A program made the translations under genes and the position numbers. From positions 1 to 39,732 of the forward strand of contig JACMQX010000013.1 of the NCBI GenBank assembly GCA_014376765.1: a stretch of 39,732 bases of DNA, read 5' to 3'. Shown in pieces: positions 13,217 to 31,972 of the stretch. Within the stretch, counting starts at the first letter, position 1. The number at the start of each line of letters is the position of its first letter. The stretch comes from Ramlibacter sp. (GTDB lineage Bacteria > Pseudomonadota > Gammaproteobacteria > Burkholderiales > Burkholderiaceae_C). The notes beneath the pieces were generated by a model. It worked only from the letters and a program-made list of their open reading frames with translations, made no database searches and was not told the DNA's origin.

Positions 13217-16200
13217 TCAGCCTTTGCCGTATCCGCCACCCCCCGGTGTGTAAATTTCAAACACATCGCCAACAGCCATTTCTGCCTGGGCAATATGACC
13301 AAGTTCCTCGCTCTTGCCATCAACACGCACAAGCCGGTTGATACCCACCTGCCCTGCCTCTCCACCAGCCATACCGAACGCACCATGCTTGCGGCCATTC
13401 GACAGGATGCTGGCGGTCATAGGCTCCAAAAAGCGCACCGAGCGCACACCTCCGTCGCCCCCTTTCCATTTACCTTTGCCACCAGATCCTTTACGAATTT
13501 CATAGCTTTCTAGGCGCACCGGGAAGCGGAACTCAAGAACTTCCGGGTCGGTAAGGCGTGAGTTTGTCATGTGGGTCTGCACCACACTCGTACCGTTAAA
13601 GCCTTGGCCGGCACCTGAGCCACCGCTGATGGTCTCGTAGTACTGATAGCGCGCATTGCCAAAGGTAAAGTTGTTCATGGTGCACTGGCTCGCCGCCATG
13701 ACACCCAGGGCACCATACAAGGCGTTGGTAATACAGCTGGACGTCTCGACATTGCCTGCCACTACTGACGCGGGCGGATTAGGGTTGAGCATTGAACCAG
13801 CGGGAATGATCACCTTAAGCGGCTTGAGGCAACCCGCGTTGAGGGGAATGTCATCGTCCACCAAAGTTCGGAAAACGTACAGCACTGCCGCCATGCACAC
13901 CGCCGTCGGCGCATTGAAATTGTTCATCTGCTGCTGCGACGTCCCGGTGAAATCAATTTCAGCGCTGCGCGCTGCGGCGTTGACGCGAATCGCTACTTTG
14001 ATCTGGGCGCCGTTGTCCAGCGGTAAGGTGAAACTGCCATCCTTCAGACGGGTGACCACCCTTCGTACAGACTCTTCAGCGTTGTCCTGCACGTGGCCCA
14101 TGTAGGCCTGCACTACGTCCAGTCCAAACTGCTCAACCATCTTGCGCAGCTCTTGCACACCCTTTTCGTTAGCCGCTATCTGGGCCTTCAGGTCAGCCAT
14201 GTTCTGCTGGGGATTACGACTCGGATACTTACCGCTCTTCAACAGCTCCACCATCTCAGCTTCCCGCAACACACCCTGCTGCACCAGCTTCACGTTGTTG
14301 ATCTGTACACCTTCTTCCTCGATCAGCGTAGAGAAGGGGGGCATGGATCCCGGCGTGGTTCCCCCGATATCGGCATGGTGGCCTCGCGAGCCTACGTAGA
14401 ACGTGGGTTTGCCTTCCAGATATACCGGCGTGATCACGGTCACATCTGGCAAATGTGTTCCGCCATGGTAGGGATCGTTAAGCGCGTACACGTCCCCCGG
14501 CTGCATAGTGGTCGCATTCTCGCGGACGACAGTTTTGATGCTCTCGCCCATGGAGCCGAGATGCACCGGCATATGCGGCGCATTGGCGATCAAATTGCCT
14601 TGCGCGTCAAACAGTGCACAACTGAAATCCAGCCGTTCCTTGATGTTCACCGAGTAGGCGGTGTTCTGCAGTTGCAGTCCCATCTGCTCAGCGATATTCA
14701 TGAAAAGGTTGTTAAACACCTCCAAGAGCACTGGATCGACTTTTGTACCCGCCGCAAACTTGACGGCGCGGGCCACGCGCCGATCAAGTACCAAATGGTC
14801 AAGTGCTGTCAGCGCCGCCTCCCAACCAGGCTCCACAATGGTCGTGGCATTCTTCTCTGCAATGATGGCAGGACCGGAGATGAGGTCGCCGGCTCGCAAA
14901 TCCTCACGCACCACAAGCGCCGCATCATGCCACTGTCCGCCAGAATACATACGCACGGTCTCACGGCGCGGGACCTCCCGGCGGTCATGCATGGCATGGC
15001 GCGGCTCTACAGGCGCATCGCCTGCAACCACCGCCTCCACTGATACCGCTTCCACAATCAGCCCCTTACCCTGCATCAAAAAGGCAAAACGTTGCCGGTA
15101 CGCCGCTTCAAAGGCGAAACTGATCGCTTCCATCGAGCCAAAGGGGACGATCAGAGCTGAGTCGCTTCCTTCGTAGCGCACATGCACGCGCCGCAGCATC
15201 GTGATTGCACCGTTACCCACTTCCTGGCGAATAAGTTCGCCTTTGGCGTTATCTGCCAGCGCGGCGAGCTTGTCAGCAATGCGAGGCAGCGCATCAGCGG
15301 ACAGCTTGACTTCTACAGCGTGTTCACGGATCACAGACTGATCGGCCAGGCCCATCCCATACGCACTCAATACACCCGCCAGCGGGTGTACAAACACTTT
15401 GGTCATACCCAACGCGTCTGCCACGAGGCATGCATGTTGACCGCCTGCGCCGCCAAAGCACTGCAGCGTGTACCGGGTCACGTCATAGCCGCGCGCAACG
15501 GATATTTTCTTGATTGCGTTAGCCATCTGCTGCACAGCGATGTTGATAAAGCCTTCGGCCACCGCTTCGGCCGAACGACCCGTGCGGTCTGCAAGTTCAT
15601 TGAACCTGACCTGCACAGCCTCAGAATCCAATGCCTCGTCACCCTGCTTGCCGAAAAACTTGGGGAAATATCGCGGCTGGATCTTGCCTACCATGACATT
15701 CGCATCTGTCACAGCGAGGGGCCCGCCGCGCCTGTAGCTGGCAGGCCCAGGATTCGCACCTGCGCTTTGTGGTCCGACGCGAAACCGCGATCCGTCAAAT
15801 TCAAGGATGGAGCCACCGCCCGCTGCAACCGTATGAATGCTCATCATGGGCGCGCGCATCCGAACGCCCGCTATCTGGGTCTCAAACTCCCGTTCGAACT
15901 CACCGGCGTAGTGGCTCACATCGGTAGAAGTGCCACCCATATCAAACCCGATGACCTTCTCATGGCCAGCGATCGTTGCGGTGCGCGCCATACCCACAAT
16001 GCCGCCAGCCGGGCCACTCAAGATCGCATCTTTACCCTGAAAAGCGTGAGCATCAGTAAGGCCGCCGGACGACTGCATGAAAAACAGTTTCACACCGGGC
16101 ATCTCGCTGGCTACCTGCTCAACATAGCGCCGCAGGATTGGCGATAGGTAGGCGTCCACTACGGTAGTGTCCCCGCGGCTCACAAACTTCATCATCGGAC

Positions 16201-16801
16201 TTGTTTCGTGCGAGGTACTCACCTGTAAGAAGCCAACCTCACGAGCTATGCGCGCAGCTGCCTTTTCGTGGTCCATAAACCGGTACCCATGCATAAAGAC
16301 AATTGCCACGCTACGAAGTCCATTCGCGTACTGTGCAACTAGGTCCTGTCGCAGCCGGGAGTCATCCATGGCGCTGATCAGTTCGCCGGTGGCACCGACA
16401 CGCTCATCTACCTCAACTACCGCGCTATAGAGCAGCTCGGGAAGGACAATATTTCGATCGAAAATTCGCGGCCGATTCTGATAAGCAATTCGCAACGCGT
16501 CGCGAAACCCTTTGGTCGTCACCAACAGCGTTGGTTCGCCCTTGCGCTCCAGCAATGCGTTGGTCGCTACAGTCGTGCCCATCTTGACGCACTCCACTAG
16601 CTGCGGCGTCACCGGCTGATCAACTTCCAAACCCAGCAAATGCCGGATTCCTGCCACCGCTGCGTCCTTATACTGTTCCGGATTCTCACTAAGCAGCTTA
16701 TGCGTGATCAGCGAACCGTCGGGACGACGTCCCACCACATCGGTAAATGTACCTCCGCGATCGATCCAGAATTGCCAACGGGGAGAGATGTCTTTCTGCA
16801 T
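13217..16801 (-). CDS. ATP-dependent 5-oxoprolinase / hydantoinase (HyuA-HyuB fusion)
   Basis: It should hydrolyse 5-oxo-L-proline (pyroglutamate) to L-glutamate, or a related cyclic amide such as a hydantoin, using ATP. The 1194 residues hold a full HyuA part (to about 680) and a full HyuB part (about 685-1190), the layout of eukaryotic-type 5-oxoprolinase. HyuA shows the ASKHA-type phosphate loop FWIDRGGTFTDVVGRRPDG near residue 11, VKMGTTVATNALLERKGE, and GFDMGGTSTDVSHY. HyuB shows ALNDPYHGGTHLPDVTV and GSRGHHADIGG. It ends in GGGGYGKG, the usual C-terminus. It is last in a minus-strand row behind an orphan TRAP receptor and a DUF1445 protein, which favours a pyroglutamate-type substrate. 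The exact substrate cannot be read from sequence. Confidence 0.9.
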   Translation of the reverse strand: MQKDISPRWQFWIDRGGTFTDVVGRRPDGSLITHKLLSENPEQYKDAAVAGIRHLLGLEVDQPVTPQLVECVKMGTTVATNALLERKGEPTLLVTTKGFRDALRIAYQNRPRIFDRNIVLPELLYSAVVEVDERVGATGELISAMDDSRLRQDLVAQYANGLRSVAIVFMHGYRFMDHEKAAARIAREVGFLQVSTSHETSPMMKFVSRGDTTVVDAYLSPILRRYVEQVASEMPGVKLFFMQSSGGLTDAHAFQGKDAILSGPAGGIVGMARTATIAGHEKVIGFDMGGTSTDVSHYAGEFEREFETQIAGVRMRAPMMSIHTVAAGGGSILEFDGSRFRVGPQSAGANPGPASYRRGGPLAVTDANVMVGKIQPRYFPKFFGKQGDEALDSEAVQVRFNELADRTGRSAEAVAEGFINIAVQQMANAIKKISVARGYDVTRYTLQCFGGAGGQHACLVADALGMTKVFVHPLAGVLSAYGMGLADQSVIREHAVEVKLSADALPRIADKLAALADNAKGELIRQEVGNGAITMLRRVHVRYEGSDSALIVPFGSMEAISFAFEAAYRQRFAFLMQGKGLIVEAVSVEAVVAGDAPVEPRHAMHDRREVPRRETVRMYSGGQWHDAALVVREDLRAGDLISGPAIIAEKNATTIVEPGWEAALTALDHLVLDRRVARAVKFAAGTKVDPVLLEVFNNLFMNIAEQMGLQLQNTAYSVNIKERLDFSCALFDAQGNLIANAPHMPVHLGSMGESIKTVVRENATTMQPGDVYALNDPYHGGTHLPDVTVITPVYLEGKPTFYVGSRGHHADIGGTTPGSMPPFSTLIEEEGVQINNVKLVQQGVLREAEMVELLKSGKYPSRNPQQNMADLKAQIAANEKGVQELRKMVEQFGLDVVQAYMGHVQDNAEESVRRVVTRLKDGSFTLPLDNGAQIKVAIRVNAAARSAEIDFTGTSQQQMNNFNAPTAVCMAAVLYVFRTLVDDDIPLNAGCLKPLKVIIPAGSMLNPNPPASVVAGNVETSSCITNALYGALGVMAASQCTMNNFTFGNARYQYYETISGGSGAGQGFNGTSVVQTHMTNSRLTDPEVLEFRFPVRLESYEIRKGSGGKGKWKGGDGGVRSVRFLEPMTASILSNGRKHGAFGMAGGEAGQVGINRLVRVDGKSEELGHIAQAEMAVGDVFEIYTPGGGGYGKG

Positions 16802-16839
16802 GATGTCCAGTTGTCGTTTTGAAGCAACCAGTGTTGCTG

Positions 16840-17856
16840 TCAGGGTTGCGTGTAATACGGAATAAAAATGTCATTGGCTTCATTGCCAACTGATCGTACC
16901 CATTCACGGGAGAAGCGCTCGCCCAAGCGTTTGATTTCATGGTCCAGTTCGCCAGGTATGCGTTCAATCTTGACGCCATTGCGCCGAAGCTCTTCGGTCG
17001 CGCTCAGTGCCTGTTGCTGGCTGGCCTCCCAGCCGCGTGTTTCCGCTTCATCAGCAGCCTTGACAACAGCCTTGCGGATATCTGGCTTTAGCGCGCCAAG
17101 CTCCTTGGTGTTGACAAAAACGACGTTCTTTGGGAACCACGCGTTGATTTCATAGTAGTGCTTGATTGAACTCCACACCTTGTTATCCACGCCGGTGACG
17201 GCAGAGGTAATCATGCTGTCCATCCGGCCTTCTGCCAACGCTTTTCCCACGTCGATCATGGGGACGTCAACAGGCGTGGCGCCGAGCAGTTCCGCGATCC
17301 GCACGGTCGTTGCGTTGTAGGTTCGCATACGGGCACCCCTGAAGTCGCTGATGCTGCGGATGGGCTTAACGGAATGCAAGCCTTGTGGCGGCCACGGCAC
17401 GGCGTACAACAGCGTGAGTCCTTGTGCTTCCAGATGCCGCACCATGCCAGGGCGCTGCAATTTCCACATGCGCTTGGCATCCTTGTAGGAACTGACCACG
17501 AACGGCACAGAATCCGCACCTGCAAATGGTATGTCTTTGACCATGCTGGACATGATGGTCTCGCCAGCCTCGACCTTACCCTCCCTGACTGCACGGCTGA
17601 TTTCATTGAGCTTGGCGAGCGTATTGTTGGGGGACACCTGAATGTCCAGTTTCCCTGCAGTCGCCAGTCGGACGTCACGCGCGAACTGAGCTATGTTCTC
17701 TGTGTGAAAGACTTCAGCGCGATAACCTGTTGCCAGTTTCCATACCACGGTTGCTGGAGAAGACACAGGCGCGGCGTTATTGGGCGCTTGTGCAAGTGAA
17801 TTCTGAACGTGACTCAGCAAGGCCACGGAAAGCGCGGCCATCAACAAAAACTTCAT
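16840..17856 (-). CDS. Orphan TRAP transporter solute-binding protein (DctP family)
   Basis: This is a periplasmic receptor of a TRAP transporter: a 338-residue protein with a signal peptide (about 1-22) and the DctP fold. Recognisable segments are FHTENIAQFARDV, the PWPPQGLH loop, and RMRTYNATTVRIAELLGATP, where the family's carboxylate-binding arginine usually lies. The ATG at 17856 follows AGGAG. No DctQ or DctM gene adjoins it. It is visibly paralogous to the receptor at 25208-26176 along its whole length (FHxEN.xQFA.DV, GKL.IQV, WPPQG, IAELxGAxPV, AEARGW/AETRGW). It probably delivers substrate to the same membrane complex (26184-28056), or to one encoded elsewhere. It lies 19 bp after the DUF1445 gene. 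Confidence 0.9.
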   Translation of the reverse strand: MKFLLMAALSVALLSHVQNSLAQAPNNAAPVSSPATVVWKLATGYRAEVFHTENIAQFARDVRLATAGKLDIQVSPNNTLAKLNEISRAVREGKVEAGETIMSSMVKDIPFAGADSVPFVVSSYKDAKRMWKLQRPGMVRHLEAQGLTLLYAVPWPPQGLHSVKPIRSISDFRGARMRTYNATTVRIAELLGATPVDVPMIDVGKALAEGRMDSMITSAVTGVDNKVWSSIKHYYEINAWFPKNVVFVNTKELGALKPDIRKAVVKAADEAETRGWEASQQQALSATEELRRNGVKIERIPGELDHEIKRLGERFSREWVRSVGNEANDIFIPYYTQP

Positions 17857-17875
17857 GATGAACTCCTTGGCGGAC

Positions 17876-18643
17876 CTACCCTTTTAGGTCGGTTACAAAC
17901 ATTTTTCCAGGGGCGTGCGTTATACAGAAAGGTAGCTTGCTGCTTTGGGCCACCCACTGGGGCGTAACACCACAGGCCCAGAACACCGGCACTTCATCTT
18001 CATTGATGCTGACCGCATCACCGTAATCCGGCCGGCTCAGATCGGCAATACCGATAACCGACGGATTGCCGATATGGACCGGCGTACCGTGCGCCAGTGC
18101 ATATCGGCCAGAAATCTTCACCACCATGGCAACGTCTCGGCTTTTGATGGGCCGCATACTCACCACCATCTCGCCACTCAACGAGCCGGATGGAGCACAA
18201 GTAATGTTGGTGCGGTACATAGCCACATTGCGGCCCTGTTCCAAATGCCGCAGAGCAATACCGGCCTGTTCCAAGGCATCTTCAAATGAGAAGCTGCAAC
18301 CAATCAGAAATGTGACGAAGTCCGGTTGCCATAAATACATCACGTCATCGGGCTCCCCAACAAGCTCACCGTTGCGGTAGACGCGATAACCTGGCACATC
18401 GGTGGCGATGTTGGCACCTAATGCGCTCGAGGGCTCGACAGCGCCGGGTGCCAGCACCTCGATCAACGGACACGGTTTTGGATTACGCTGGCAGAACAGC
18501 AGGAAGTCAAAGGCCTGCGCCTGCGGAAGGATCATCAGGTTTGCCTGCAAATACCCTGGCGCGTGACCGGCCGTGGACGACTTGAATTGTCCATCGCGCG
18601 CGGACTTACGTAGAGTCTCAGGTTTTTGGGGATTCGTGATCAT
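17876..18643 (-). CDS. DUF1445/YcsI family protein (D-glutamate cyclase-like hydro-lyase)
   Basis: It belongs to the YcsI/DUF1445 family, whose domain in the mammalian enzyme DGLUCY makes 5-oxo-D-proline from D-glutamate; bacterial members are usually called putative hydro-lyases. The ATG at 18643 gives 255 residues, close to family length, and clears livF by 22 bp; the longer ATG at 18703 would overlap livF. Conserved segments are AGHAPGYLQANL (25-36), RNPKPCPLIEV (53-63), LIGCSFSFEDAL (113-124), VSMRP (161-165), FWACGVTPQ (221-229) and ITHAPGKMFVTDL (241-253). It sits beside a 5-oxoprolinase. In Bacillus subtilis ycsI lies with pxpABC, an unrelated 5-oxoprolinase, so the pairing supports a role around pyroglutamate. 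The activity itself is inferred. Confidence 0.85.
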   Translation of the reverse strand: MITNPQKPETLRKSARDGQFKSSTAGHAPGYLQANLMILPQAQAFDFLLFCQRNPKPCPLIEVLAPGAVEPSSALGANIATDVPGYRVYRNGELVGEPDDVMYLWQPDFVTFLIGCSFSFEDALEQAGIALRHLEQGRNVAMYRTNITCAPSGSLSGEMVVSMRPIKSRDVAMVVKISGRYALAHGTPVHIGNPSVIGIADLSRPDYGDAVSINEDEVPVFWACGVTPQWVAQSSKLPFCITHAPGKMFVTDLKG

Positions 18644-18665
18644 GAAGATACTGGTCAGTGGGCTG

Positions 18666-19370
18666 TCAAAGACCGAGGTATGCCTTCTTGACGCGCTCGT
18701 CATGCAGCAACGTCTGGCCCGCGCCCTCCATCACAATACGCCCCGTCTGAATCACATATCCATAGTCGGCAATATTCAGCGCTTTTTGCAGGTTTTGCTC
18801 CACCAGCAATATAGACACACCGGTCTCGTTGACCTGCTGGATCACATCCAGCACCTTTGTGACAAACTTTGGAGCGATTCCCCAAGAAGGCTCGTCAAGC
18901 ATGAGCAACTTGGGCCGCGCCATCAGGCCGCGCGCAATAGCAAGCATCTGTTGCTCTCCACCGCTCATTGTTCCAGCGAGCTGTGTTGCACGCTCCTTAA
19001 GGATAGGAAAAAGGTCTAGCATCTGACCAATGCCTGCAGCCACCTCATGCTTGTCGTCGCGCGTGTAGGCGCCCAATTCAAGATTGCGCAAGACAGTGAG
19101 CTTGGGAAAGAGACGCCGGCCTTCTGGAACCAGCGAAAGACCGAGCGGCACGCGCCTATGTGCAGGCATTTTGTGTATGGGCTCTCCATTGAAGGTAATG
19201 GTCCCTGCATCGGCCGCATTGAGGCCAGCAACAGCGCGTAGAGTTGTGGACTTGCCATTGCCGTTCCCTCCCACAAGCGCCACGATCTTGCCGGGCTCCA
19301 CAGTCAGGCTGACGTCTGAGATCGCGAGCACGTCGTCGTAACTGACCCGCAGATTGGAAATAGTGAGCAT
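18666..19370 (-). CDS. livF: Branched-chain amino acid-type ABC transporter ATP-binding protein LivF
   Basis: This is one of the two ATPases of a HAAT-family (branched-chain or amide-type) importer. The 234-residue length is standard. Walker A is GGNGNGKST at 34-42, the signature is MSGGEQQ at 135-141, and Walker B is LLMLDEP at 155-161. The usual DEPSLGLAP is DEPSWGIAP here, a mild variant. It starts 4 bp after livG ends and is followed 22 bp later by the DUF1445 gene, so transport and metabolism genes are probably on one transcript. HAAT importers carry branched-chain amino acids, but also amides, urea and other amino acids. Confidence 0.94.
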   Translation of the reverse strand: MLTISNLRVSYDDVLAISDVSLTVEPGKIVALVGGNGNGKSTTLRAVAGLNAADAGTITFNGEPIHKMPAHRRVPLGLSLVPEGRRLFPKLTVLRNLELGAYTRDDKHEVAAGIGQMLDLFPILKERATQLAGTMSGGEQQMLAIARGLMARPKLLMLDEPSWGIAPKFVTKVLDVIQQVNETGVSILLVEQNLQKALNIADYGYVIQTGRIVMEGAGQTLLHDERVKKAYLGL

Positions 19371-19374
19371 TTTT

Positions 19375-20085
19375 TCAATCTCCCAGGTAGGCAGAGATGA
19401 CGACGGAGTCGCTGGAGACTTGTTGTGGCGTGCCCTCAGCGATCTTCAGGCCGCGGTCCAGAACCACGATCTTGTCGGCGATGGGCATGATGCCTTCCAG
19501 CACGTGTTCGACGATCAGGCACGAGATGCCGCGCTCTCGAATTTTCAGCACCACATCGACTGCCTCACGAACCTCAGATGGGTTCAGACCTGCCATGACT
19601 TCATCCATCAACAGGATCTTGGGGCGAATGGCCAACGCTCGGGCCACCGCAAGGCGTCTCTGTTCACTGATCGTCATGCTGTGGGCTGGTCGATCAGCAA
19701 AACGCTCCAGATTTGCAAATACCAGCCATTCCAAGGCCATTGCACGGGCTCGCCCTACATGACGCTCATGAAGCATGGCAGCGGTCATGACGTTCTCGCA
19801 AGCCGTCATGCTGGTAAACGTGCGGGCAATCTGGAAGGTGCGCGCCACGCCGGCGCGAGCACAGGCCTCTGGGGACAGCCCGCCAATGTTGACGCCAGCA
19901 AGTGTGATGGCACCCTCGGTCGGTGCGTAAAAGCCTGCAACGCAATTGAATAGCGTAGTTTTCCCGGCGCCGTTGGGGCCAATCAGACCCACGATCTGTC
20001 CGGCACCCACTGTGAAGGTAACGTCTTGGTTTGCCGTAAGTCCACCGAATCGCTTGCTGACGTTGGTAACTTGAAGCAGGCTCAT
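19375..20085 (-). CDS. livG: Branched-chain amino acid-type ABC transporter ATP-binding protein LivG
   Basis: This is the second ATPase of the importer (236 aa). Walker A is GPNGAGKT at 36-43 and Walker B is ILLMDE at 157-162. The LivG insertion GVARTFQIARTF is present at 79-90. The signature loop is unusual: residues 136-144 read SMTISEQRR where LivG proteins normally have a glycine-containing LSYGQQRR-like motif. The Walker B tail is also altered (DEVMAGLNP rather than DEPAAGLNP). The frame is intact, and the 4-bp overlap with livM is undisturbed, so it is probably a diverged but expressed subunit. Confidence 0.92.
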   Translation of the reverse strand: MSLLQVTNVSKRFGGLTANQDVTFTVGAGQIVGLIGPNGAGKTTLFNCVAGFYAPTEGAITLAGVNIGGLSPEACARAGVARTFQIARTFTSMTACENVMTAAMLHERHVGRARAMALEWLVFANLERFADRPAHSMTISEQRRLAVARALAIRPKILLMDEVMAGLNPSEVREAVDVVLKIRERGISCLIVEHVLEGIMPIADKIVVLDRGLKIAEGTPQQVSSDSVVISAYLGD

Positions 20086-21125
20086 GACACTTCTCCTGCA
20101 GGACGCTGTGAGGCAGAGGTAGGCGATGGCAATCCTTGTGCCACCGCATGCGCAGCGTCCTGTCGAACGGCACTGGCCCTGGCAGTGCGTCGCTCTTTGT
20201 AGTTACGTATCCACCCAATCAATCCCGTGGGGTAGAACACCGCAACAATGATGATGAGACTTGCATAAATGATGACGTCCGTCCCGCGCCCAGTTCCACC
20301 AAATACGATGCGGGTGAATTCCTCAATGCTCGTCAAAACTACAGCTCCGACAACCGGACCCAACAGAGTACCAACTCCGCCAAGGATGGAAACGAGTGCC
20401 ATTTTGATTGACAGGGCCGTGGATAGCACCGAACCCGGATCGATATAGAGCTCTTTCTGCGCATACAGACTCCCACCTGCTGCAGTGAAGAAAGCGCTGA
20501 CCGACAGCGCCACCTGTTTGTAGCGGGCAATGTTGACGCCCACGCTTCGAGCAGCATCGGGCTCATCTTTGATCGCACGGAAGTAGTACCCGAGAAAGCT
20601 GCGTTCGATCCACAGGTTGGCCGCCAAGGTCACACCAAGCAGTCCAAGCGCTAACCAATAGTAGGGAAGCTTGGTCGCAAAGTTCATCCAGATCAGGCCT
20701 TGCTTGTCCATCGGGACATACAAGCCAACCGCTGCGCCGCCGTACTCCCATTCAGTAAAGAATATCTGTACAAGTTCGGCTACAGCAATGGTCGCCATCG
20801 CAAAGTAGTGGCCCTTGAGCCTGAAGCAAGACCAGCCGAAGCCCAGGCTAAGTAGTGCGGCAAATAATCCACCGGCCAGGGTACCAACCCAGGGATTGAT
20901 GCCAAACTTGACCAGTAAAAGCGTGGAGCAATATGCGCCCACTCCGTAGAACGCCGCGTGGCCCAGAGACACCTGGCCGGCATAGCCGCCTACCATGTTC
21001 CACGCCACACCAAGCTGTGCCGCCATTAACACAAGCACAATGAGATTCAAGTGGGATGTGTTGCTCACGACCGTTGGCACGAGCAGCGCAACGAAGGCGG
21101 CAATGAGAAGGAGTAATTTGTTCAT
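20082..21125 (-). CDS. livM: Branched-chain amino acid-type ABC transporter permease LivM
   Basis: This is an inner membrane permease of 347 residues with about nine to ten hydrophobic helices. The family-typical GYAGQVSLGHAAFYGVGAY lies near residues 47-65. The EAA-like coupling loop follows around RAIKDEPDAARSVGVN. The C-terminus carries about 40 extra residues rich in Ala, Arg and Ser after GLIGWIRNYKERR, probably a cytoplasmic tail. Its stop overlaps the livG start as ATGA, and it starts 19 bp after livH ends. Confidence 0.93.
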   Translation of the reverse strand: MNKLLLLIAAFVALLVPTVVSNTSHLNLIVLVLMAAQLGVAWNMVGGYAGQVSLGHAAFYGVGAYCSTLLLVKFGINPWVGTLAGGLFAALLSLGFGWSCFRLKGHYFAMATIAVAELVQIFFTEWEYGGAAVGLYVPMDKQGLIWMNFATKLPYYWLALGLLGVTLAANLWIERSFLGYYFRAIKDEPDAARSVGVNIARYKQVALSVSAFFTAAGGSLYAQKELYIDPGSVLSTALSIKMALVSILGGVGTLLGPVVGAVVLTSIEEFTRIVFGGTGRGTDVIIYASLIIIVAVFYPTGLIGWIRNYKERRTARASAVRQDAAHAVAQGLPSPTSASQRPAGEVS

Positions 21126-21144
21126 GATGAGTCGTTACTTGCAG

Positions 21145-22011
21145 TCAAGCCTTGCCCATCAAGCCCTGAGGCCTGAACATCAGCACACCTAGAAATAGCA
21201 CCAGAACGATGGCGGTCTTGTACTGGGGACCCACAAGCAGGCCACCCATGACTTCGATCACACCAACCAGAATGCCAGCCCAGAAAGCGCCCGTCACGCT
21301 TCCAAAGCCACCGAGATTGACCACCACAAACGCGAGCAAAATAAAGTTGGCTCCGACATCGGGGAAAATCGGGAAAAAAGTTGCGAGAAGAGCGCCTGCA
21401 GCGCCCGCACAAGCAGCGCCAATGCCCCAAGCAAGTGAAAACATTTTGTGGGAGTCGATGCCCATCAATCTGGCAGCTTCCTTGTCCGATGCGGTGGCCT
21501 CAAGTGCGGCACCCACACGCGTCTTGTTGAGAAACATGTAGATGATCGTGGTCACCACGATTGCACCCAAACCAGCAACGAGTTGAGGGGTTCCCAGCTG
21601 AATCCCTGCAAACTTGACGGTCCCGCTGACCGCCGAATTTTCAATCGAGCGAAAGTCTGGTTTCCACAGAAACTGTGCCACACCACGCAGCAAAATCATG
21701 ATCCCAAAGGTCGTGAATATCTGAGAAAGCATGGGCGCGTTGATGATGCGCACGATCACCAGGCGATACAGAAGTACGCCAAAGGCGAAAAGCATCAACA
21801 CTGTGAGGGGCAGGGTCAGCATCGGGTCCAGGGCATAGAGCGCAAAGAGCCAGAAGGTCGAATACATGCCCAGCATCAGGAACTCGCCGTGCGCAAAGTT
21901 CACGATGTCCATGACACCGAAGATCATGGTCAGCCCAATCGCGACGAGCGCGTAGATCAGCCCGATCAATACGCCAGAAGCGAGGGTCTGGATCAGAATT
22001 TCCGGTGTCAT
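21145..22011 (-). CDS. livH: Branched-chain amino acid-type ABC transporter permease LivH
   Basis: This is the partner permease (288 aa), with about eight membrane helices. It carries the LivH signature (SGVLIGLIYALVAIGLTMIFG near the N-terminus), DIVNFAHGEFLMLGMY, and the coupling loop EATASDKEAARLMGID. I chose the ATG at 22011 because it starts at the family position (MTPEILIQTL) and has a GGAAG upstream. The longer frame to 22125 runs into livK. It lies 47 bp after livK. Confidence 0.93.
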   Translation of the reverse strand: MTPEILIQTLASGVLIGLIYALVAIGLTMIFGVMDIVNFAHGEFLMLGMYSTFWLFALYALDPMLTLPLTVLMLFAFGVLLYRLVIVRIINAPMLSQIFTTFGIMILLRGVAQFLWKPDFRSIENSAVSGTVKFAGIQLGTPQLVAGLGAIVVTTIIYMFLNKTRVGAALEATASDKEAARLMGIDSHKMFSLAWGIGAACAGAAGALLATFFPIFPDVGANFILLAFVVVNLGGFGSVTGAFWAGILVGVIEVMGGLLVGPQYKTAIVLVLFLGVLMFRPQGLMGKA

Positions 22012-22058
22012 GGGTACTTCCAGGAAGGTTAAATTACGGCGGGAGGAGAATGTGCCGC

Positions 22059-23324
22059 CTACTTCCGGTCGGCCCATTTGGGCATCGGCCAGATCGGATC
22101 CTGGGTCGCGATGTTGAACGGCCACACTGTGTGATATTTGCCGTCCTTGATTTGAACAAGGATGCCCTGGCCCAGCGTGTTCTGGCCCGTAGCGTCAAAC
22201 CTCACACCCTTCCACGGCATGATCAATTTGTTTCCTGGAATGTCAGTCGTGGCCAACGCCTTACGGATGGCTTCGGGCTCGGTCGAGCCGGCTCGGTTCA
22301 GCGCGTCTGCCAGAACCATCAGGCCGGTGAAAGTACGCGAACTGTTCCCGGTGAAGTTGATTTTGTACCGGGCATTGAAGAGATCATTGACTTGCTTGAT
22401 CAGCGGATTGCGGTTGGCCAGATCCAGCGCCCAAACCTCCCGGGTGATCACGTAGTCGGCATCCTTGCCGAGCGTCTTGATGAAGTCCGTATCGGTGAAA
22501 CCAGCGTTATTGGCCAGAATCATGTCGGGCGAAAAACCGAGCTCCTTGTATGTCTTCATCGACAGAATGGCGTCGGGCGTATAGGAAGATTGCAGCACCA
22601 AATTTGGATTAGCCGCCTTCAACGTCTGAACTTCAGATGTAAGCTGAGTCGTCTTGGCCGGATAAACTATCTGCTTGACGATGGTGTAACCGTAGTCCGG
22701 CGCCAACTTGGCTTGAAGCTTGGTAGTTTCCGTTCCCCACAGCCCGTTTTCGTTGAGTGAGGCAATGTTGCCGGGCTTGACGCCCTTTTTCGCTTGCAAG
22801 TCCTTTAGGAATTCAAAGGCATTGTTTACAAAAAGGTCATCGTGCGGGGTTGTCCGAAAAAACCACTTGAAGTTACGCGCAGTAAGGGAAGCAGAGGACG
22901 ACTCCGGATTCAAAAACGGAATACCCGCCCGCTCCGCTACCTGGCTTGCTGTCGCGGTGACTGCGCTGTTGTAAGCGCCAACGATTGCAACCACACGCTC
23001 CTGGTTGATAAGGCGTTCTGCCTCAGTCGCGCCTGTCTGGGGATTAGCCTGGTGATCAGCAAACACCAGCTTGATCTTTGCACCCTTCAAATTGACAAGG
23101 CCTTTGCCGTCCGCAAATTGAAGCTCTGAAATCCCTTTGGCGCCGTTGTTGATGATGTCGGCGGCAAGCTCAAGAGCACTGCGAAGTTCGGCGCCGACCG
23201 AGGCGCCCGGACCCGTCAAAGGGTATATGACCCCAATTTTTATTTCCTGCTGCGCGTGTGCCGAAATGGCCAGACCAAGACCCGCAAGCAGAGTGGCCAA
23301 TCTGGCCTTGGAGAAAAAACGCAT
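22059..23324 (-). CDS. livK: ABC transporter substrate-binding protein, LivK-like
   Basis: This is the periplasmic binding protein of the HAAT importer, 421 residues. It has a signal peptide (cleavage near AISAHAQQ, residues 20-26) and the type I periplasmic fold: IKIGVIYPLTGPGASVGAEL, then VVAIVGAYNSAVTATASQVAE, where the ligand backbone contacts usually lie. The ATG at 23324 follows a strong GAGGAG. It is the first transporter gene after a 121-bp gap that contains a promoter candidate and an inverted repeat. The ligand is not readable from sequence; the genome context suggests an amino acid, pyroglutamate or a hydantoin-like amide. Confidence 0.92.
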   Translation of the reverse strand: MRFFSKARLATLLAGLGLAISAHAQQEIKIGVIYPLTGPGASVGAELRSALELAADIINNGAKGISELQFADGKGLVNLKGAKIKLVFADHQANPQTGATEAERLINQERVVAIVGAYNSAVTATASQVAERAGIPFLNPESSSASLTARNFKWFFRTTPHDDLFVNNAFEFLKDLQAKKGVKPGNIASLNENGLWGTETTKLQAKLAPDYGYTIVKQIVYPAKTTQLTSEVQTLKAANPNLVLQSSYTPDAILSMKTYKELGFSPDMILANNAGFTDTDFIKTLGKDADYVITREVWALDLANRNPLIKQVNDLFNARYKINFTGNSSRTFTGLMVLADALNRAGSTEPEAIRKALATTDIPGNKLIMPWKGVRFDATGQNTLGQGILVQIKDGKYHTVWPFNIATQDPIWPMPKWADRK

Positions 23325-23445: not shown

Positions 23446-24405
23446 TCATCGATTTTTTCGCTGGAACTGTTTTTTGGTGGCGGTTTCTTTGAGCTTGCGA
23501 ACACCGGCCTTTGGATGCGGTGCCAGCTCCTGTTTCTCAATGAAGCTGAACACTTCTTTGACCACAGTTTCAACTGCGGTTGAAGTGGGATCGGCGCGAT
23601 AGGTTGCACAAACAGGCAGCGGCAGCAAAGCAGTGCTCGACTTGAGCAGTTTCAGGTTTCTGTGCGCCAGCAAACGCTCGGCTGCTACGCGTGGCAGTGT
23701 GGCAATGCCGAATCCACCTTCCACCAACTGGGTCATTGCCGAGATCGACGAAATCGTATGTACCCGCTTGGGTTCCAGCTCTGCCTGGCGGAACAGATCG
23801 ACAAGCGCTACATGTGGTTGAGAGCCGCGCTGGAAAGTCAGGAGATCGACCTTCGCGAGGTCGCCAAGCGAATACAGACGGTGGCGGTGTTCATTCGCAT
23901 TACCGACGAATACCATTTCCATCGCAGGCAATGAGCGGCTTCGCAAGCCTTCCATTGACGCAGGCAAAGCGGCGAAGATCAAGTCAAGGGCGCCGCGGCG
24001 GATTTGATCCAGCAAAACGGGCGTGGTCTCTACCGTCATTTCCAGTTCCAGATGCGGGTAGTCTTCACGTAACTTTTCCACCATCGGGATCAACCAGGAG
24101 TGCAGCACGGACTCAATGGCGCCCAGGCGCAAAGTCATTGCCTGAGGCGCTTCTGAGCCCAGTTCGGCCTTTACCTCGCGTTGCAATTCAAGCAAACGCT
24201 GTGCATAGGTAAAAAAGCGCAGCCCTGCGACTGTCAAGCGGAACTGTTTGTCACGCCGGTCAAGAAGCAGCACACCCAGTTCTTGTTCCAATGCCGCGAT
24301 ACGGCTTGACATGGCGGACTGCGTAAGGAAAAGTTTTTCGGCTGCACGTGTCACGCTTTTGAGTGAGACCACCCAGAAAAAAGCTTCAACAAATCGGAGG
24401 TTCAT
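23446..24405 (-). CDS. LysR family transcriptional regulator
   Basis: This is a 319-residue LTTR. The winged helix-turn-helix is at the N-terminus (SVTRAAEKLFLTQSAMSSRI, about 17-36), followed by the linker helix and a periplasmic-binding-like effector domain (from about residue 90). The C-terminus is short, basic and probably disordered. The start overlaps the racemase stop as ATGA, so both are read from one transcript. It most likely controls the adjacent liv-oxoprolinase genes and perhaps the divergent TRAP operon; the co-inducer would then be a substrate of this cluster. That is inferred from position only. Confidence 0.92.
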   Translation of the reverse strand: MNLRFVEAFFWVVSLKSVTRAAEKLFLTQSAMSSRIAALEQELGVLLLDRRDKQFRLTVAGLRFFTYAQRLLELQREVKAELGSEAPQAMTLRLGAIESVLHSWLIPMVEKLREDYPHLELEMTVETTPVLLDQIRRGALDLIFAALPASMEGLRSRSLPAMEMVFVGNANEHRHRLYSLGDLAKVDLLTFQRGSQPHVALVDLFRQAELEPKRVHTISSISAMTQLVEGGFGIATLPRVAAERLLAHRNLKLLKSSTALLPLPVCATYRADPTSTAVETVVKEVFSFIEKQELAPHPKAGVRKLKETATKKQFQRKNR

Positions 24406-25184
24406 GGCGCGATCTTCACATGCCAGGGTTGGAAGAGCCGCTGGTCATTCAACAGCGAAATAGTCTTGAGCCCTGTCGCTTGTTCGATTCCAGCGCTATA
24501 CGGCGGCATATTGGTGCACTCCAGGACCACAGAACGCAGGGCAGGCGCGCGCCGCATCAAAGAGACGGCTGCATCGACTACATCCTGCGCAGCTTTCGCA
24601 AGGTCCAGCTCCTGGTGATTACCTAGGATTCGCGTGGCAAACTCCCCTTCGGGATTGACGCCTTGAATCAGCACATCGCCCAACCGCTCGCGCGGCACGC
24701 CGGCTGCGCGCAAATGTTCTTTACCGAGGCTCGCGGCACTGATGGTCAGCACACCCACCTGCTTTTCGTGCGCAAGAAGGCTCGGCAACTGCATCAGGCT
24801 GGACGTTATGACGGGCACCTTGACGCTGGCCTGCAGTTCCTTTTGCAGCAGGACCAAAAATCCACAGCTGGTGGTGATGGCCCGTGCGCCGCGACGCTCC
24901 AGAAGGCGCATCACGCTCACGAAGCTGGGCACCACGCGGCCAGCGCGCAGACCCGCCGCCGACTGCACGACCTTTTCCGGCCAGATACCTCGCACCACAT
25001 GAAAGTCAACTGGCACCCCAAAGGTGCCGGGTGCCCCGATGTCCCCCGGCGGACGCGGAAAGCGGGTGTCCAGCATAACGATGCCAAGAAACCCTCCCGG
25101 GGCGGCAGCGTTGTGGCTTGCGACCAAGGGAAAAGCCGGGGAATCTGGCCCGGGAATTGCATTTATGCTTCGTGCTTCGCTCAT
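24402..25184 (-). CDS. Aspartate/glutamate (hydantoin) racemase family protein
   Basis: This is a 260-residue member of the two-cysteine, cofactor-free Asp/Glu racemase superfamily. Cys107 in AITTSCGFL and Cys223 in VVLECTNMPPYS occupy the two catalytic positions, so it can in principle act as a racemase. Near the N-terminus it has GFLGIVMLDTRFPRPPGDIG (31-50), a hallmark of an uncharacterised subgroup. Other superfamily members are hydantoin racemases and maleate isomerases, so the substrate is open. The ATG at 25184 is preferred over an adjacent TTG. The first 30 residues are not clearly conserved and the true start may be later. It leads the minus-strand block, 23 bp from the divergent dctP. 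Confidence 0.85.
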   Translation of the reverse strand: MSEARSINAIPGPDSPAFPLVASHNAAAPGGFLGIVMLDTRFPRPPGDIGAPGTFGVPVDFHVVRGIWPEKVVQSAAGLRAGRVVPSFVSVMRLLERRGARAITTSCGFLVLLQKELQASVKVPVITSSLMQLPSLLAHEKQVGVLTISAASLGKEHLRAAGVPRERLGDVLIQGVNPEGEFATRILGNHQELDLAKAAQDVVDAAVSLMRRAPALRSVVLECTNMPPYSAGIEQATGLKTISLLNDQRLFQPWHVKIAP

Positions 25185-25207
25185 CAACTCATTGTCCCGG
25201 AGAGCTC

Positions 25208-26176
25208 ATGAATTACAAATTCGGATTAATGGCTGTTGCCGCAACCTTGGCAACCACTGCCTTTTCCCAGACCAAATGGGACCTGCCGGCCGCTTATCCA
25301 GCCAATAACTTCCATAGCGAAAACCTCGTGCAGTTCGCAGCTGACGTGGACAAAGCCTCTGGTGGCAAGCTCAAGATTCAGGTCCACGCCAATGCATCCC
25401 TGTTCAAAGCCAATGAGATCAAGCGTGCGGTGCAAGGCGGCCAGGCGCCCATCGGTGAAGTGTTGCTGGTCAACTCGGAAAACGAAAACCCTATCTATGG
25501 CGCCGACGGCATCCCCTTTCTGGCCACAAGCTATGTAGAAGCCAAGAAACTTGCCATTGCGCAAAAACCTCTGCTCGACAAGCTTCTGGGTGCGCAAGGC
25601 ATGAAATTGCTGTACACGGTTGCTTGGCCGCCACAGGGAATTTATGTCAACAAGGAACTTGCATCCGTGGCCGACATGCGGGGGCTGAAGTGGCGCGCCT
25701 ACAGTCCTGCCACTGCGAAGATTGCCGAGTTGATTGGGGCTCAGCCGGTGACGATCCAGGCTGCAGAGCTGTCACAGGCGTTGGCCACAGGTGTGGTGAA
25801 CAGTTACATGAGTTCGGGCTCGACGGGGTATGACTCCAAGACTTATGAAAGTATCAAATACTGGTATGACACGCAAGCCTGGTTGCCGAAAAACGCAATC
25901 ATCGTGAATCAGAAGGCTTTTGACGCGCTCGACAAACCGACGCAGGAGGCTGTCCTTAAATCCGCCGCGGCAGCGGAAGCCCGTGGCTGGAAAAGCAGTG
26001 AAGAAAAAAATGAGTGGTATGCCAAGGCCCTGACCGAGAAGGGCATGAAGATCATGAAGCCACCACCGAAACTGATGGCCGACCTCAAGCAGGTTGGCGC
26101 GATCATGCTGGCCGATTGGGAAAAGAAAGCCGGCGCAGATGGTGCTGCCGTCATCGCTACTTTCCGGAAACAGTAA
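25208..26176 (+). CDS. dctP: TRAP transporter solute-binding protein (DctP family)
   Basis: This is the periplasmic receptor of a TRAP transporter, 322 residues from the ATG at 25208. That start has GGAG upstream and gives a clean signal peptide (MNYKFGLMAVAATLATTAFSQ); a longer frame to 25118 would bury it. Conserved parts are FHSENLVQFAADV, VAWPPQGIY and KWRAYSPATAKIAELIGAQP. It is the first gene of a dctPQM operon, with 7 bp to dctQ. Its close paralogue at 16840-17856 lies at the far end of the divergent block, so the membrane subunits may serve two receptors. Ligands of this family are mainly organic and amino acids. Confidence 0.93.
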   Translation: MNYKFGLMAVAATLATTAFSQTKWDLPAAYPANNFHSENLVQFAADVDKASGGKLKIQVHANASLFKANEIKRAVQGGQAPIGEVLLVNSENENPIYGADGIPFLATSYVEAKKLAIAQKPLLDKLLGAQGMKLLYTVAWPPQGIYVNKELASVADMRGLKWRAYSPATAKIAELIGAQPVTIQAAELSQALATGVVNSYMSSGSTGYDSKTYESIKYWYDTQAWLPKNAIIVNQKAFDALDKPTQEAVLKSAAAAEARGWKSSEEKNEWYAKALTEKGMKIMKPPPKLMADLKQVGAIMLADWEKKAGADGAAVIATFRKQ

Positions 26177-26183
26177 GCCGGAG

Positions 26184-26717
26184 ATGCGCCGATTCCTCGA
26201 CCGCCTCTATCTAGCCTCTGGCGCCGTGGGCGCCGCCTTCATCGCACTGATATGCATCGTGATGATTGCGCAGAGCATCCTGCGAGAGTTCGGCGTTCGC
26301 ACCGGTGCAGCCAACGACGTGGTGGCCTGGTCTTGCGCAGCCGCGTCTTTCTTTGCAATGGCCCATGCTTTCAAACATGGTGACTTTGTCCGCGTGACTC
26401 TGTTGCTGGAAGCGGTGCCCGCCCGCATCAGGCGCGTGTTGGAGATCACCAGCCTGGCGATCGCCTCCGTCTCTGTTGGCTACCTGGCCTTCTGGGCCAA
26501 TAAATTCACCTACGACAGCTGGCAGTTTGATGAAAAGGCACAGGGACTGCTGGCCATTCCGATCTGGATCCCGCAGATGAGCTTCGCACTGGGGTCCATC
26601 CTGCTTCTGGTCGCCGTGGTCGACGAGCTCATCATCGTACTGCGCGGGGGCCGGCCGAGTTTTGTCGTCGCGGTAGAAGAGCGCCACGCCAAAGGCGATT
26701 TCTCTTCGGACGTTTGA
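26184..26717 (+). CDS. dctQ: TRAP transporter small permease (DctQ family)
   Basis: This is the four-helix small membrane subunit of the TRAP transporter, 177 residues. Hydrophobic helices lie at about 11-31, 45-62, 85-105 and 125-150, with DVVAWSCAAASFFAMAHAFK and the family-typical IWIPQMSFALGS. I chose the ATG at 26184 (GGAG just upstream), as an in-frame start at 26094 lies inside dctP. It is 28 bp from dctM. Confidence 0.9.
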   Translation: MRRFLDRLYLASGAVGAAFIALICIVMIAQSILREFGVRTGAANDVVAWSCAAASFFAMAHAFKHGDFVRVTLLLEAVPARIRRVLEITSLAIASVSVGYLAFWANKFTYDSWQFDEKAQGLLAIPIWIPQMSFALGSILLLVAVVDELIIVLRGGRPSFVVAVEERHAKGDFSSDV

Positions 26718-26745
26718 TCCGGCACAACTCGAAACATCGCACCTT

Positions 26746-30959: not shown

Positions 30960-31972
30960 TTCATGCCTTTCAATGTCTGGTCAGCCGTGGGCAAGGCCCT
31001 GCAGTCGTCGATGTATTGCCGCACGATGTCCGCAAAATTTTCATGGGGCTTCAAGCCCAGCCGCGCAGCACGAACTGCGCTCGCGCCACCAGGCCAGTTG
31101 CCCACGATGCCCGCCACGCGCTCATCGCGCTCAAAGCGCACCAGCTTGCGAACCTGTGGGCCAGCCACCTCCTCCAGTGCATCGAGCATGTCGCTCACAC
31201 GCACGTTGAGCGCTGGCAGGTTCAAGGCCGTGCGGCCGCAGAACGCCTCGCGCGACGCCTCATACACCGCAATCAAACCGTCCACCGTGCGCGAAGGCGA
31301 CGACATCGGGTGCGACACATCGGCCGACACCGGGCATATCGCCTCCACCCCCGCCAGCGGCTCGCGGATGATGCCGCTGAAGAACGACGAGGCCGCGCCA
31401 TTGGGCTTGCCCGGCCGCACAGTCACCGTCATCAGCCGCGCAGCGCGGCCGTCGATGTAGCCCTTGCGGGTGTAGTCGGCAATCAGGTGTTCGCAGATCA
31501 GTTTTTGCGTGCCGTAAGACGTCTGGGGCGCGGGCAGCGTGTCGTCGGCCACCAGCTTGGGCAGCGGCACCGCCGGGTCCGGCCCAAACACAGCCACCGA
31601 GCTGGAGAACACCAGCCGCGCCACCTTGCCGCCCGCATTCACATGGGCCCGCAAGGCGTCAATCAGCGCACGCGTGCTGTCCAGGTTGGAGCGCAGCCCC
31701 AGATCAAAGTCTGTTTCGCATTCGCCGGAAACGGCCGACGCCAGATGGAACACACCGTCAAATGGCTCGGTACGCAGGGCCTCAGTTTGCGCAAGCAGCG
31801 GCCCGGTGCGTGCCGTCACACGCGGATCAGCCAAGAGGTCGGCGGGAGGCGTCGCAATGTCGGTGAGCACCATGCTGGTAATGGGTCCGCCAGCCAGGGT
31901 GCCGCGTGCCAGCAGGGTGCGGGCCAGGCGCGCGCCAAGAAAGCCGCCACCACCGGTAATCAATATTTTCAT
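30956..31972 (-). CDS. NAD-dependent epimerase/dehydrogenase, DenD-like (D-erythronate dehydrogenase family)
   Basis: This is an extended SDR of 338 residues. The NAD motif is [10 protein letters not shown] at 7-16, the active site includes SSS at about 123-125, and the catalytic pair is Tyr153/Lys157 (YGTQK). The segment [21 protein letters not shown] (76-95) resembles the D-erythronate dehydrogenase (DenD) group. It overlaps the dehydratase by 4 bp and follows the GntR gene by 9 bp. In this context it may oxidise a sugar or sugar acid before the dehydratase acts. The substrate is not certain; DenD itself oxidises D-erythronate at C3. Confidence 0.82.

Follow-up and report, generated by a model that had tools for sequence, protein, structure and literature searches.

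A DUF1445 gene in a probable pyroglutamate uptake and utilisation cluster with a putative OplAH-type 5-oxoprolinase in Ramlibacter sp.

The association of DUF1445 with the 5-oxoprolinase PxpABC is prior knowledge from Bacillus subtilis (PMC10448178), whose pxpABC operon also contains ycsG and ycsI. A DUF1445 domain is likewise contained in the mammalian D-glutamate cyclase (9030617O03Rik / C14orf159; PMC5339696, PMC5132392), in which it is joined to DUF4392. Cyclase activity has been reported for the purified cloned two-domain protein, whose racemase-like similarity sits in DUF4392, not in DUF1445 (PMC5339696). The present database name of PF07286, the DUF1445 family, is D-Glu_cyclase. Our literature search found no activity assay for bacterial DUF1445 proteins or the HyuAB proteins linked to them.

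The window, that is, the whole analyzed stretch of 39,732 nt from Ramlibacter sp., resembles the Bacillus operon in clustering DUF1445 with transporter genes and an ATP-dependent 5-oxoprolinase, predicted in the case of the window (Table 1). Unlike the Bacillus operon, it has an unrelated fused HyuAB, and TRAP and Liv genes replace Nramp. In contrast to PxpABC-type systems, PxpA, PxpB and PxpC are missing from the cluster, no pxp genes being found within about 10 kb of DUF1445; a PxpA relative is encoded on another contig of the genome, while PxpC (PF02626) was not found in this assembly (4.05 Mb, 92.8% complete). The only PF07286 match and the only PF02538 match of the genome both lie in the window. 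Scanning the window against Rfam produced no hits.

Table 1. Genes of the cluster, their location in the window and the basis of their assignment
Feature	Coordinates	Strand	Basis or remark
Fused HyuA-HyuB, putative OplAH-type ATP-dependent 5-oxoprolinase, 1194 aa	13217..16801	-	Pfam domains and motifs
DctP1, TRAP binding protein, between DUF1445 and OplAH-type gene	16840..17856	-	pyroglutamate-binding subfamily
DUF1445 / PF07286 protein	17876..18643	-	255 aa when started at M21 of the longest ORF (17876-18703)
LivF-like ABC ATPase	18666..19370	-	PF00005
LivG-like ABC ATPase	19375..20085	-	PF00005 and PF12399
LivM-like permease	20082..21125	-	PF02653
LivH-like permease	21145..22125	-	PF02653; real start probably more internal
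LivK-like periplasmic binding protein	22059..23324	-	PF13458
LysR-family regulator	23446..24405	-	PF00126 and PF03466
Asp/Glu/hydantoin racemase-like protein (PRK07475)	24402..25187	-	PF01177 and PRK07475
DctP2, second pyroglutamate-type TRAP binding protein	25118..26176	+	nearest solved chains 2PFZ, 6WGM, 2PFY
DctQ	26094..26717	+	PF04290, 68.8 bits
DctM	26746..28056	+	PF06808 and TIGR00786

The genes of LivF, DUF1445, DctP1 and HyuAB follow each other on one strand with gaps of 22, 19 and 38 nt (the DUF1445 start taken at 18643), and because of these short gaps a single operon is likely. The first-pass annotation had placed DUF1445 next to the OplAH-type gene: they probably do share a tight operon but are not adjacent, as the dctP1 gene intervenes.

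The DUF1445 protein matches PF07286 with 224 bits (cut-off 25) over profile positions 1-143 of 143, and the NCBIfam model PRK05463, "putative hydro-lyase", with 397.8 bits (cut-off 324). Its predicted structure (pLDDT 94.3) matches the solved family members 2PIF (Z 35.4, rmsd 1.6) and 3DB9 (Z 32.6, rmsd 2.0). Beyond the family, the fold clearly resembles just one other structure, that of the NrpR-like MJ0159 (3NEK; Z 9.8 across 167 residues, Foldseek E 3.3e-6); the C5 dicarboxylate 2-oxoglutarate is an effector of NrpR. Foldseek and VIA rows ranked below 3NEK were at noise level and were not used. PF07286 is the only Pfam domain of the protein: DUF1445 is shared with the mammalian cyclase, but DUF4392 is absent, and the DUF4392 model PF14336 found nothing in the window genome (92.8% complete), nor in any control genome. 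The same model matched eight of the 75 other DUF1445 genomes; DUF4392 genes cluster with DUF1445 in some bacteria, as do amidase genes at some loci.

The fused protein contains Hydant_A_N, Hydantoinase_A, Hydant_A_C and Hydantoinase_B in this order in one chain, and is thus likened by domains and by ATP and metal motifs to eukaryotic OPLAH and yeast OXP1, which also combine HyuA and HyuB parts. According to motif definitions taken from PMC8453981, it carries DxGGTxTD (P1, D14), DxGGT (P2, D287), GxxPGP (GANPGP at 348) and a D-H-D-H metal site (D725, H783, D786, H808). The six ATP-site and metal-site residues are kept in all 25 distinct fused proteins of DUF1445 loci, the window included. In line with the claimed lack of sequence relationship to PxpABC, blastp of E. 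coli PxpA, PxpB and PxpC against the window HyuAB gave nothing meaningful (best E 0.12). Judging by its family, its motifs and the exchange with PxpABC described below, the window HyuAB is probably of OplAH type and would convert 5-oxo-L-proline.

The binding proteins provide the best new evidence for the pyroglutamate link, DctP1 being encoded between DUF1445 and HyuAB and DctP2 further along the cluster. DctP1 scores 243 bits against 2PFY, 223 against 2PFZ and 205 against 6WGM (next chain 66), and DctP2 scores 438 against 2PFZ, 280 against 6WGM and 271 against 2PFY (next chain 87), so that both score about threefold or more higher against DctP6 and DctP7 of Bordetella pertussis and the marine protein 6WGM than against any other solved chain. 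The titles of the top three Foldseek matches of DctP1 name pyroglutamic acid or pyroglutamate. By similarity, both proteins belong to the pyroglutamate-binding DctP subfamily, and their close solved relatives point to the same ligand; unlike in those systems, no membrane component dedicated to DctP1 is encoded beside it. Pyroglutamate-type DctPs occur at 8/78 DUF1445 loci of set A, 15/80 of set B and 0/60 TRAP controls (these samples are defined below). They are found beside both oxoprolinase types, OplAH-type and PxpABC, and thus indicate the substrate without dependence on enzyme annotation. The TRAP binding proteins encoded at the family-f63 loci score 64 to 79 bits against the window DctPs, and the one compared with solved structures, from locus L085, has no clear closest subfamily. 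The closest solved chain to the LivK-like protein is 8WCH. For a LivK relative, PA4913, whose identity with 8WCH or orthology to the window LivK is not implied, amino-acid binding is described, pyroglutamate not being among the ligands in the available text (PMC6829864).

Neighbours were counted within about 10 kb of DUF1445. Set A comprises 79 DUF1445 loci of the window's phylum, the window included (78 without it). Set B, reported apart, comprises named loci, the best 80 of at least 593 confirmed candidates, and is tilted to the window's own relatives because it was ordered by match to the window protein. OplAH was counted where a single tblastn segment reached 500 bits or more, and Pxp where two or more of the three subunits had E at most 1e-10; several loci end at contig ends and were retained in the denominators. 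As controls, we used TRAP loci alone, 60 from 49 of the 75 DUF1445 genomes, taken from the highest-scoring DctM matches listed and, where on DUF1445 contigs, at least about 49 kb away from DUF1445.

Separating PxpABC-linked, OplAH-linked and unlinked loci, as the first-pass annotation had proposed, we found in set A without the window two or more pxp genes near 32/78 DUF1445 loci and a fused OplAH-type gene near 9/78; either oxoprolinase was present at 40/78 and neither at 38/78. The enrichment of OplAH that the annotation anticipated is observed, since none of the 60 control TRAP loci has HyuAB or PxpABC. Moreover, the density of scored HyuB matches predicts 0.43 fused loci, with at most three candidates scored per genome and figures taken from the best places listed, and 1.25 if all first-look candidates are counted, compared with nine seen. 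In the window's phylum OplAH-type linkage extends over 7/47 genera and 4/20 families, while 17/47 genera have neither oxoprolinase within about 10 kb; in set B, OplAH-type genes are near 19/80 loci. This limit probably conceals some links, as in Achromobacter L135, L145 and L170 are scored as unlinked and L164 has OplAH at +9.1 kb. A count of any HyuAB (14/79 in set A) was not taken as the headline, as it includes four doubtful loci: L073, whose 94-aa hit is to a single long reference ORF (L121), with none to the window HyuAB, and is probably an artefact of the upstream extension of that ORF; L077, with short OplAH-like pieces directly behind dctM, read as a relic; and L104 and L110, with split pairs of low identity. 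None of these four was counted.

At the genome level, 397 genomes were sampled from the phylum; the 76 with DUF1445 all have HyuB or PxpA, versus 215 of the 321 without DUF1445. DUF1445 was not found in some PxpA-bearing genomes, E. coli and C. glutamicum among them, and of five named control genomes matching PxpA only B. subtilis also matches DUF1445.

The two oxoprolinase types fill the same operon slot. In particular, the order LysR-DUF1445-DctPQM is followed by OplAH in L085 and L097 and by pxp genes in L084, L086 and L093, L085 and L086 belonging to one genus. The Liv context is found with OplAH in the window, L112-L114 and L174, and with Pxp in L053, L061, L075 and L126; the MFS context, with OplAH in L138 and L088, and with Pxp in L038 and L043. 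The Bacillus arrangement described in the first-pass annotation was found in Bacillus tequilensis (pxpA-Nramp-DUF1445-pxpB-pxpC), and the cyanobacterium Goleter has the order hyuA-DUF1445-hyuB. On the DUF1445 tree, built by a quick method with SH-aLRT as the sole support, the linkage needs 11 changes, at least eight of them forced by well-supported branches; such label changes do not separate gain from loss.

Two further candidates were set aside. The racemase-like protein (PF01177, 35.1 bits, cut-off 31; PRK07475, 244 bits, cut-off 231) was rejected as a core part, its relatives among the fetched DUF1445 loci being limited to L112, L113 and L124 (3/80 in set B, and no other set A locus). In set B, two loci have both DUF4392 and an oxoprolinase, 10 only DUF4392, 45 only an oxoprolinase and 23 neither (Fisher 0.003), but we claim no mutual exclusion, because at least six of the DUF4392 loci are from Chloroflexota, and L067 and L068 of set A have both.

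Could the neighbourhood simply reflect general clustering of catabolic and transport genes in such genomes? LysR, TRAP and Liv genes do occur in many places, and genes of hydantoinase type are frequent (179/397 genomes have PF02538, with at most three candidates scored per genome), but the empty TRAP controls from the same genomes and the density estimates given above make this explanation very improbable. It is rather unlikely that DUF1445 is a non-enzymatic sensor or regulator binding 5-oxoproline, glutamate or 2-oxoglutarate. This is what the fold match to 3NEK would suggest, given the ligand-binding role ascribed to the NrpR effector domain; yet Pfam and NCBIfam profile searches found no DNA-binding domain in the window protein, the family has numerous invariant residues, and a LysR or GntR regulator gene is already present at 62/79 set A and 24/80 set B loci (a LysR relative of at least 80 bits at 54/79 and 23/80). 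Moreover, in mammals the homologue belongs to an enzyme (PMC5339696).

The HyuAB family also includes N-methylhydantoinases, caprolactamase and carboxylases (PMC8453981), and the sequence alone leaves the substrate unfixed. At L104, L110, L140, L154 and L167 the neighbours are HyuA and HyuB encoded separately and of low identity. HyuAB might hence open another lactam or hydantoin, with DUF1445 acting on that compound and the likeness to the PxpABC operon being a mere parallel. We consider this improbable: the window HyuAB is far under the cut-offs of the caprolactamase models (CapA 323.7 and CapB 185.8 bits, cut-offs 1000 each) and of the acetophenone carboxylase models, both TRAP binding proteins are of the pyroglutamate subfamily, and the same slot of related operons is taken by PxpABC, a 5-oxoprolinase.

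The window is therefore probably best read as a cluster for uptake and utilisation of pyroglutamate (5-oxoproline), with DUF1445 acting on the same metabolite pool. The substrate would be imported by the TRAP transporter through its pair of pyroglutamate-type binding proteins, whose specificity is suggested by solved relatives, and possibly by the Liv-type ABC transporter as well; the fused HyuAB would then spend ATP to open 5-oxo-L-proline, yielding L-glutamate, as its family, motifs and exchange with PxpABC suggest. The earlier claim that bacterial DUF1445 proteins act on pyroglutamate or its precursor gains support from the OplAH enrichment, the tree changes and the DctPs beside both oxoprolinases, which together predict such an activity. 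Most likely, DUF1445 acts on 5-oxoproline or glutamate and is a subunit of neither oxoprolinase: it accompanies two unrelated enzymes and was not found in some PxpA genomes, which argues for an optional extra enzyme.

5-Oxoprolinases are L-specific, so that 5-oxo-D-proline by itself is a dead end without an epimerase. DUF1445 may make accessible a compound unusable by these enzymes, the simplest case, by analogy with the mammalian two-domain relative, being interconversion of D-glutamate and 5-oxo-D-proline. This reaction, with its substrate, enantiomer and direction, is favoured but unproven, because the mammalian cyclase was assayed with its second domain, the one so rarely found in DUF1445 genomes. 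More tentatively, and with considerable doubt, DUF1445 could be a stereochemical adapter which cyclises D-glutamate, or epimerises or opens 5-oxo-D-proline, so that L-specific oxoprolinases of both types salvage cell-wall D-glutamate; PxpABC and OplAH operons would each have acquired it independently, and in the mammalian enzyme the adapter would be fused to DUF4392.

DUF1445 is a common family whose role in bacteria is predicted from context, and the name D-Glu_cyclase appears to be based on the mammalian two-domain protein. A partner common to two unrelated oxoprolinases and to pyroglutamate-type DctPs reduces the plausible substrates to a few commercially available compounds, and its occurrence beside both enzymes speaks against a role as a structural subunit. 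If the D-glutamate reading is true, it would explain how D-glutamate enters central nitrogen metabolism in bacteria, and would make it easier to decide which half of the mammalian enzyme is catalytic.

The DUF1445 family (PF07286, Pfam name D-Glu_cyclase) is present in 76 of the 397 genomes evenly sampled from Pseudomonadota, the phylum of the window, the window's own genome included. Around all 78 other DUF1445 matches (set A, 79 loci with the window) about 9.8 kb per side were fetched, less at contig ends, and scored by tblastn; loci with at least two of the three PxpABC subunits were considered Pxp-linked, and those with a fused HyuAB match of at least 500 bits OplAH-linked. PxpABC lies within about 10 kb of DUF1445 at 32 of the 78 loci, the sequence-unrelated fused OplAH-type HyuAB at nine (10/79 with the window), and either oxoprolinase at 40, both occurring only at locus L041. 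The same scoring of 60 control TRAP loci, taken among the matches listed around DctM genes away from DUF1445 in 49 of the same 75 genomes, gives 0/60 for HyuAB and 0/60 for Pxp (Fisher's test: OplAH 0.005, Pxp 3e-10, either 3e-13). Gene density predicts 0.43 HyuB-bearing loci, or 1.25 if every first-look candidate is counted, and thus the OplAH enrichment near DUF1445, on which the first-pass annotation had staked its proposal, is borne out. Among the 47 genera, seven are OplAH-linked (4 of 20 families), 25 are Pxp-linked (12 families), and 30 have either link. Set B, the best 80 of at least 593 confirmed candidates from many phyla and hence biased to likeness with the window protein, has 28 Pxp-linked and 19 OplAH-linked loci (47 with either).

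HyuB or PxpA is encoded somewhere in all 76 genomes with DUF1445, compared to 215 of the 321 without it, though the HyuB count also takes in enzymes for other kinds of substrate, and the genomes do not represent independent samples. The reverse dependence is not seen. Among five named control genomes positive for PxpA, the profile search detected DUF1445 only in Bacillus subtilis, and not in Escherichia coli or Corynebacterium glutamicum. As 5-oxo-L-proline supports growth of C. glutamicum with pxpTABC (PMC13274462), DUF1445 looks like an optional addition, dispensable for opening 5-oxo-L-proline.

In the window, DUF1445 and HyuAB belong to one tight gene run (gaps of 22 nt for LivF-DUF1445, 19 nt for DUF1445-DctP1 and 38 nt for DctP1-HyuAB), but they are not immediate neighbors, as the first-pass annotation had put it, since the gene of the TRAP binding protein DctP1 separates them. 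DUF1445 and HyuB each have one copy in this genome (92.8% complete), both in the window. A PxpA-family gene is present on another contig, and PxpC was not detected in the genome at this completeness, so the window HyuAB may be its only complete oxoprolinase. Among the fetched loci (set B being the best 80 of at least 593), relatives of the racemase-like gene occur only at L112, L113 and L124. The adjoining dehydratase and dehydrogenase genes suggest a separate sugar-acid cluster beside the operon.

Genes of the window cluster and further features at DUF1445 loci
Feature	Locus	Position	Strand	Remark
HyuAB	window	13217-16801	-	fused HyuA-HyuB, 1194 aa
DctP1	window	16840-17856	-	TRAP binding protein
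DUF1445	window	17876-18643	-	
LivK, LivH, LivM, LivG, LivF	window	18666-23324	-	Liv-type ABC transporter
LysR regulator	window	23446-24405	-	
Racemase-like gene	window	24402-25187	-	Asp/Glu/hydantoin type; heads the LysR gene
DctP2, DctQ, DctM	window	25118-28056	+	divergent from the minus-strand genes
Dihydroxy-acid dehydratase, D-erythronate dehydrogenase	window	29091-31972	-	adjoining
DUF2848 (PF11010)	L045	9073-9735	-	directly behind DUF1445, then MFS/sugar transporter; neither oxoprolinase at the locus
3195-aa open frame	L073	4-9588	-	beside DUF1445; matches DUF4781 and, in two stretches, DUF4392
Short OplAH-like pieces	L077	13223-13632	+	directly behind dctM; same slot holds whole OplAH in L085

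In the window HyuAB the phosphate motifs are retained (D14, D287), as is the adenosine motif (GANPGP, position 348), and aligning it with 6YRA, the B subunit of caprolactamase, shows that the four metal residues are also present (D725, H783, D786, H808; roles of these motifs in PMC8453981). Both phosphate-site Asp and all four metal residues are conserved in 25 of 25 distinct fused HyuAB proteins (1100 aa or longer) encoded at DUF1445 loci, the window included. With the caprolactamase and acetophenone carboxylase models the window protein scores far under their cut-offs; it is a putative 5-oxoprolinase.

The most telling member of the cluster is DctP1. Compared with all sequences of solved structures, it matches 2PFY, 2PFZ and 6WGM (243, 223 and 205 bits; next chain 66), as does DctP2 (271, 438 and 280 bits; next chain 87), and a structure search with the predicted DctP1 model (mean pLDDT 89.7) ranks the same three first. 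The entries for the Bordetella pertussis proteins DctP7 and DctP6 have 'binding pyroglutamic acid' in the title, and that for 6WGM has 'specific for pyroglutamate'; according to a review, pyroglutamic acid is bound in crystals of both Bordetella proteins (PMC5812351). Independently of enzyme annotation, this kinship makes pyroglutamate the likely substrate of the cluster. DctP proteins of this type (scoring 150 bits or more with DctP1 or DctP2, with an empty score gap from 82 to 240 bits) are found in set A at 8 of the 78 loci, both on the OplAH side (L041, L044, L048, L057, L063) and on the Pxp side (L071, L078, L092), at 15 of the best 80 of at least 593 in set B, and at none of the 60 TRAP controls, though 27 of these have some DctP match.

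One operon frame can hold either enzyme. In the TRAP frame, LysR-DUF1445-DctPQM is followed by OplAH in L085 and L097, and by pxp genes in L084, L086, L093 (PxpB and PxpC only) and others; L085 and L086 come from one genus, whose third locus, L094, has neither. The Liv frame contains OplAH in the window, the Burkholderiales loci L112, L113 and L114 (from the closest named relatives of the window's genome), and L174, and Pxp in L053, L061, L075 and L126; the MFS frame contains OplAH in L138 and L088, and Pxp in L038 and L043. The cyanobacterium Goleter apudmare (L146) has the order hyuA-DUF1445-hyuB. On the tree of 159 DUF1445 proteins, OplAH-linked and Pxp-linked members are intermixed: the OplAH label requires 11 changes, at least 8 of them forced by branches with good support. 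Still, the label is more clustered than in shuffles (mean 27), as expected from inheritance. The OplAH-like pieces of L077 are probably a relic of the enzyme.

Amidase-signature proteins (PF01425) are also observed near DUF1445, at 23/79 set A loci (L040, L043, L050, L070, L072, L074, L081-L083, L090, L098-L100 among them), 11/80 set B loci, again the best 80 of at least 593 (L135, L145, L157, L164, L165, L170, L185 among them), and 1/60 controls; the matches are weak (62 to 85 bits) in 10 and 4 of these, respectively. The amidase is a possible third, unrelated amide-opening partner.

DUF4392 (PF14336) was found in 8 of the 75 DUF1445 genomes other than the window's, in six of them within about 10 kb of DUF1445, and was undetected by profile search in the window's genome (92.8% complete). 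Being neighbors in some bacteria supports a common pathway of the two families, and the rarity of DUF4392 means that most of these DUF1445 proteins must act without it. By locus, DUF4392 occurs at 6/79 in set A (L066, L067, L068, L073, L076 and, by Pfam only, L077), at 12/80 in set B, best of at least 593 (L119, L120, L127, L130, L133, L139, L141, L148, L153, L161, L176, L191), and at 0/60 controls. L077 has it at the end of a 1412-aa frame; in such G+C-rich DNA the upstream part of the long L073 and L077 frames may be spurious.

The position of ycsI (DUF1445) within the pxp operon of B. subtilis has already been described (PMC10448178). A literature search, mostly of papers open without subscription, revealed in the parts available no report tying DUF1445 to OplAH-type enzymes or pyroglutamate-binding TRAP proteins; the single pieces are of known kinds, and the OplAH form of the operon together with the enzyme exchange looks new.

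Since DUF1445 accompanies two unrelated enzymes, it probably does not form part of HyuAB or PxpABC as a subunit, and the connection is more simply explained by a metabolite in common. The predicted DUF1445 model (pLDDT 94.3) matches both solved DUF1445 proteins, and outside the family its only clear fold match is NrpR-like MJ0159, with Z 9.8 and an rmsd of 4.2 over 167 residues, the following match having Z 4.7. NrpR is a sensor of 2-oxoglutarate, and a 2005 paper names the two together in its title; the modeled fold may thus point to a pocket that accommodates a C5 dicarboxylate. The purified cloned mammalian 9030617O03Rik, which contains a DUF1445 and a DUF4392 domain with the racemase-like similarity in DUF4392, is reported to convert D-glutamate to 5-oxo-D-proline (PMC5339696). 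The Pfam name of the family agrees with this activity and presumably derives from it. DUF1445 may handle either enantiomer, in either direction; as 5-oxoprolinases are held to be L-specific, the most useful role imaginable for an optional DUF1445 protein would be that of an adapter for the D series.
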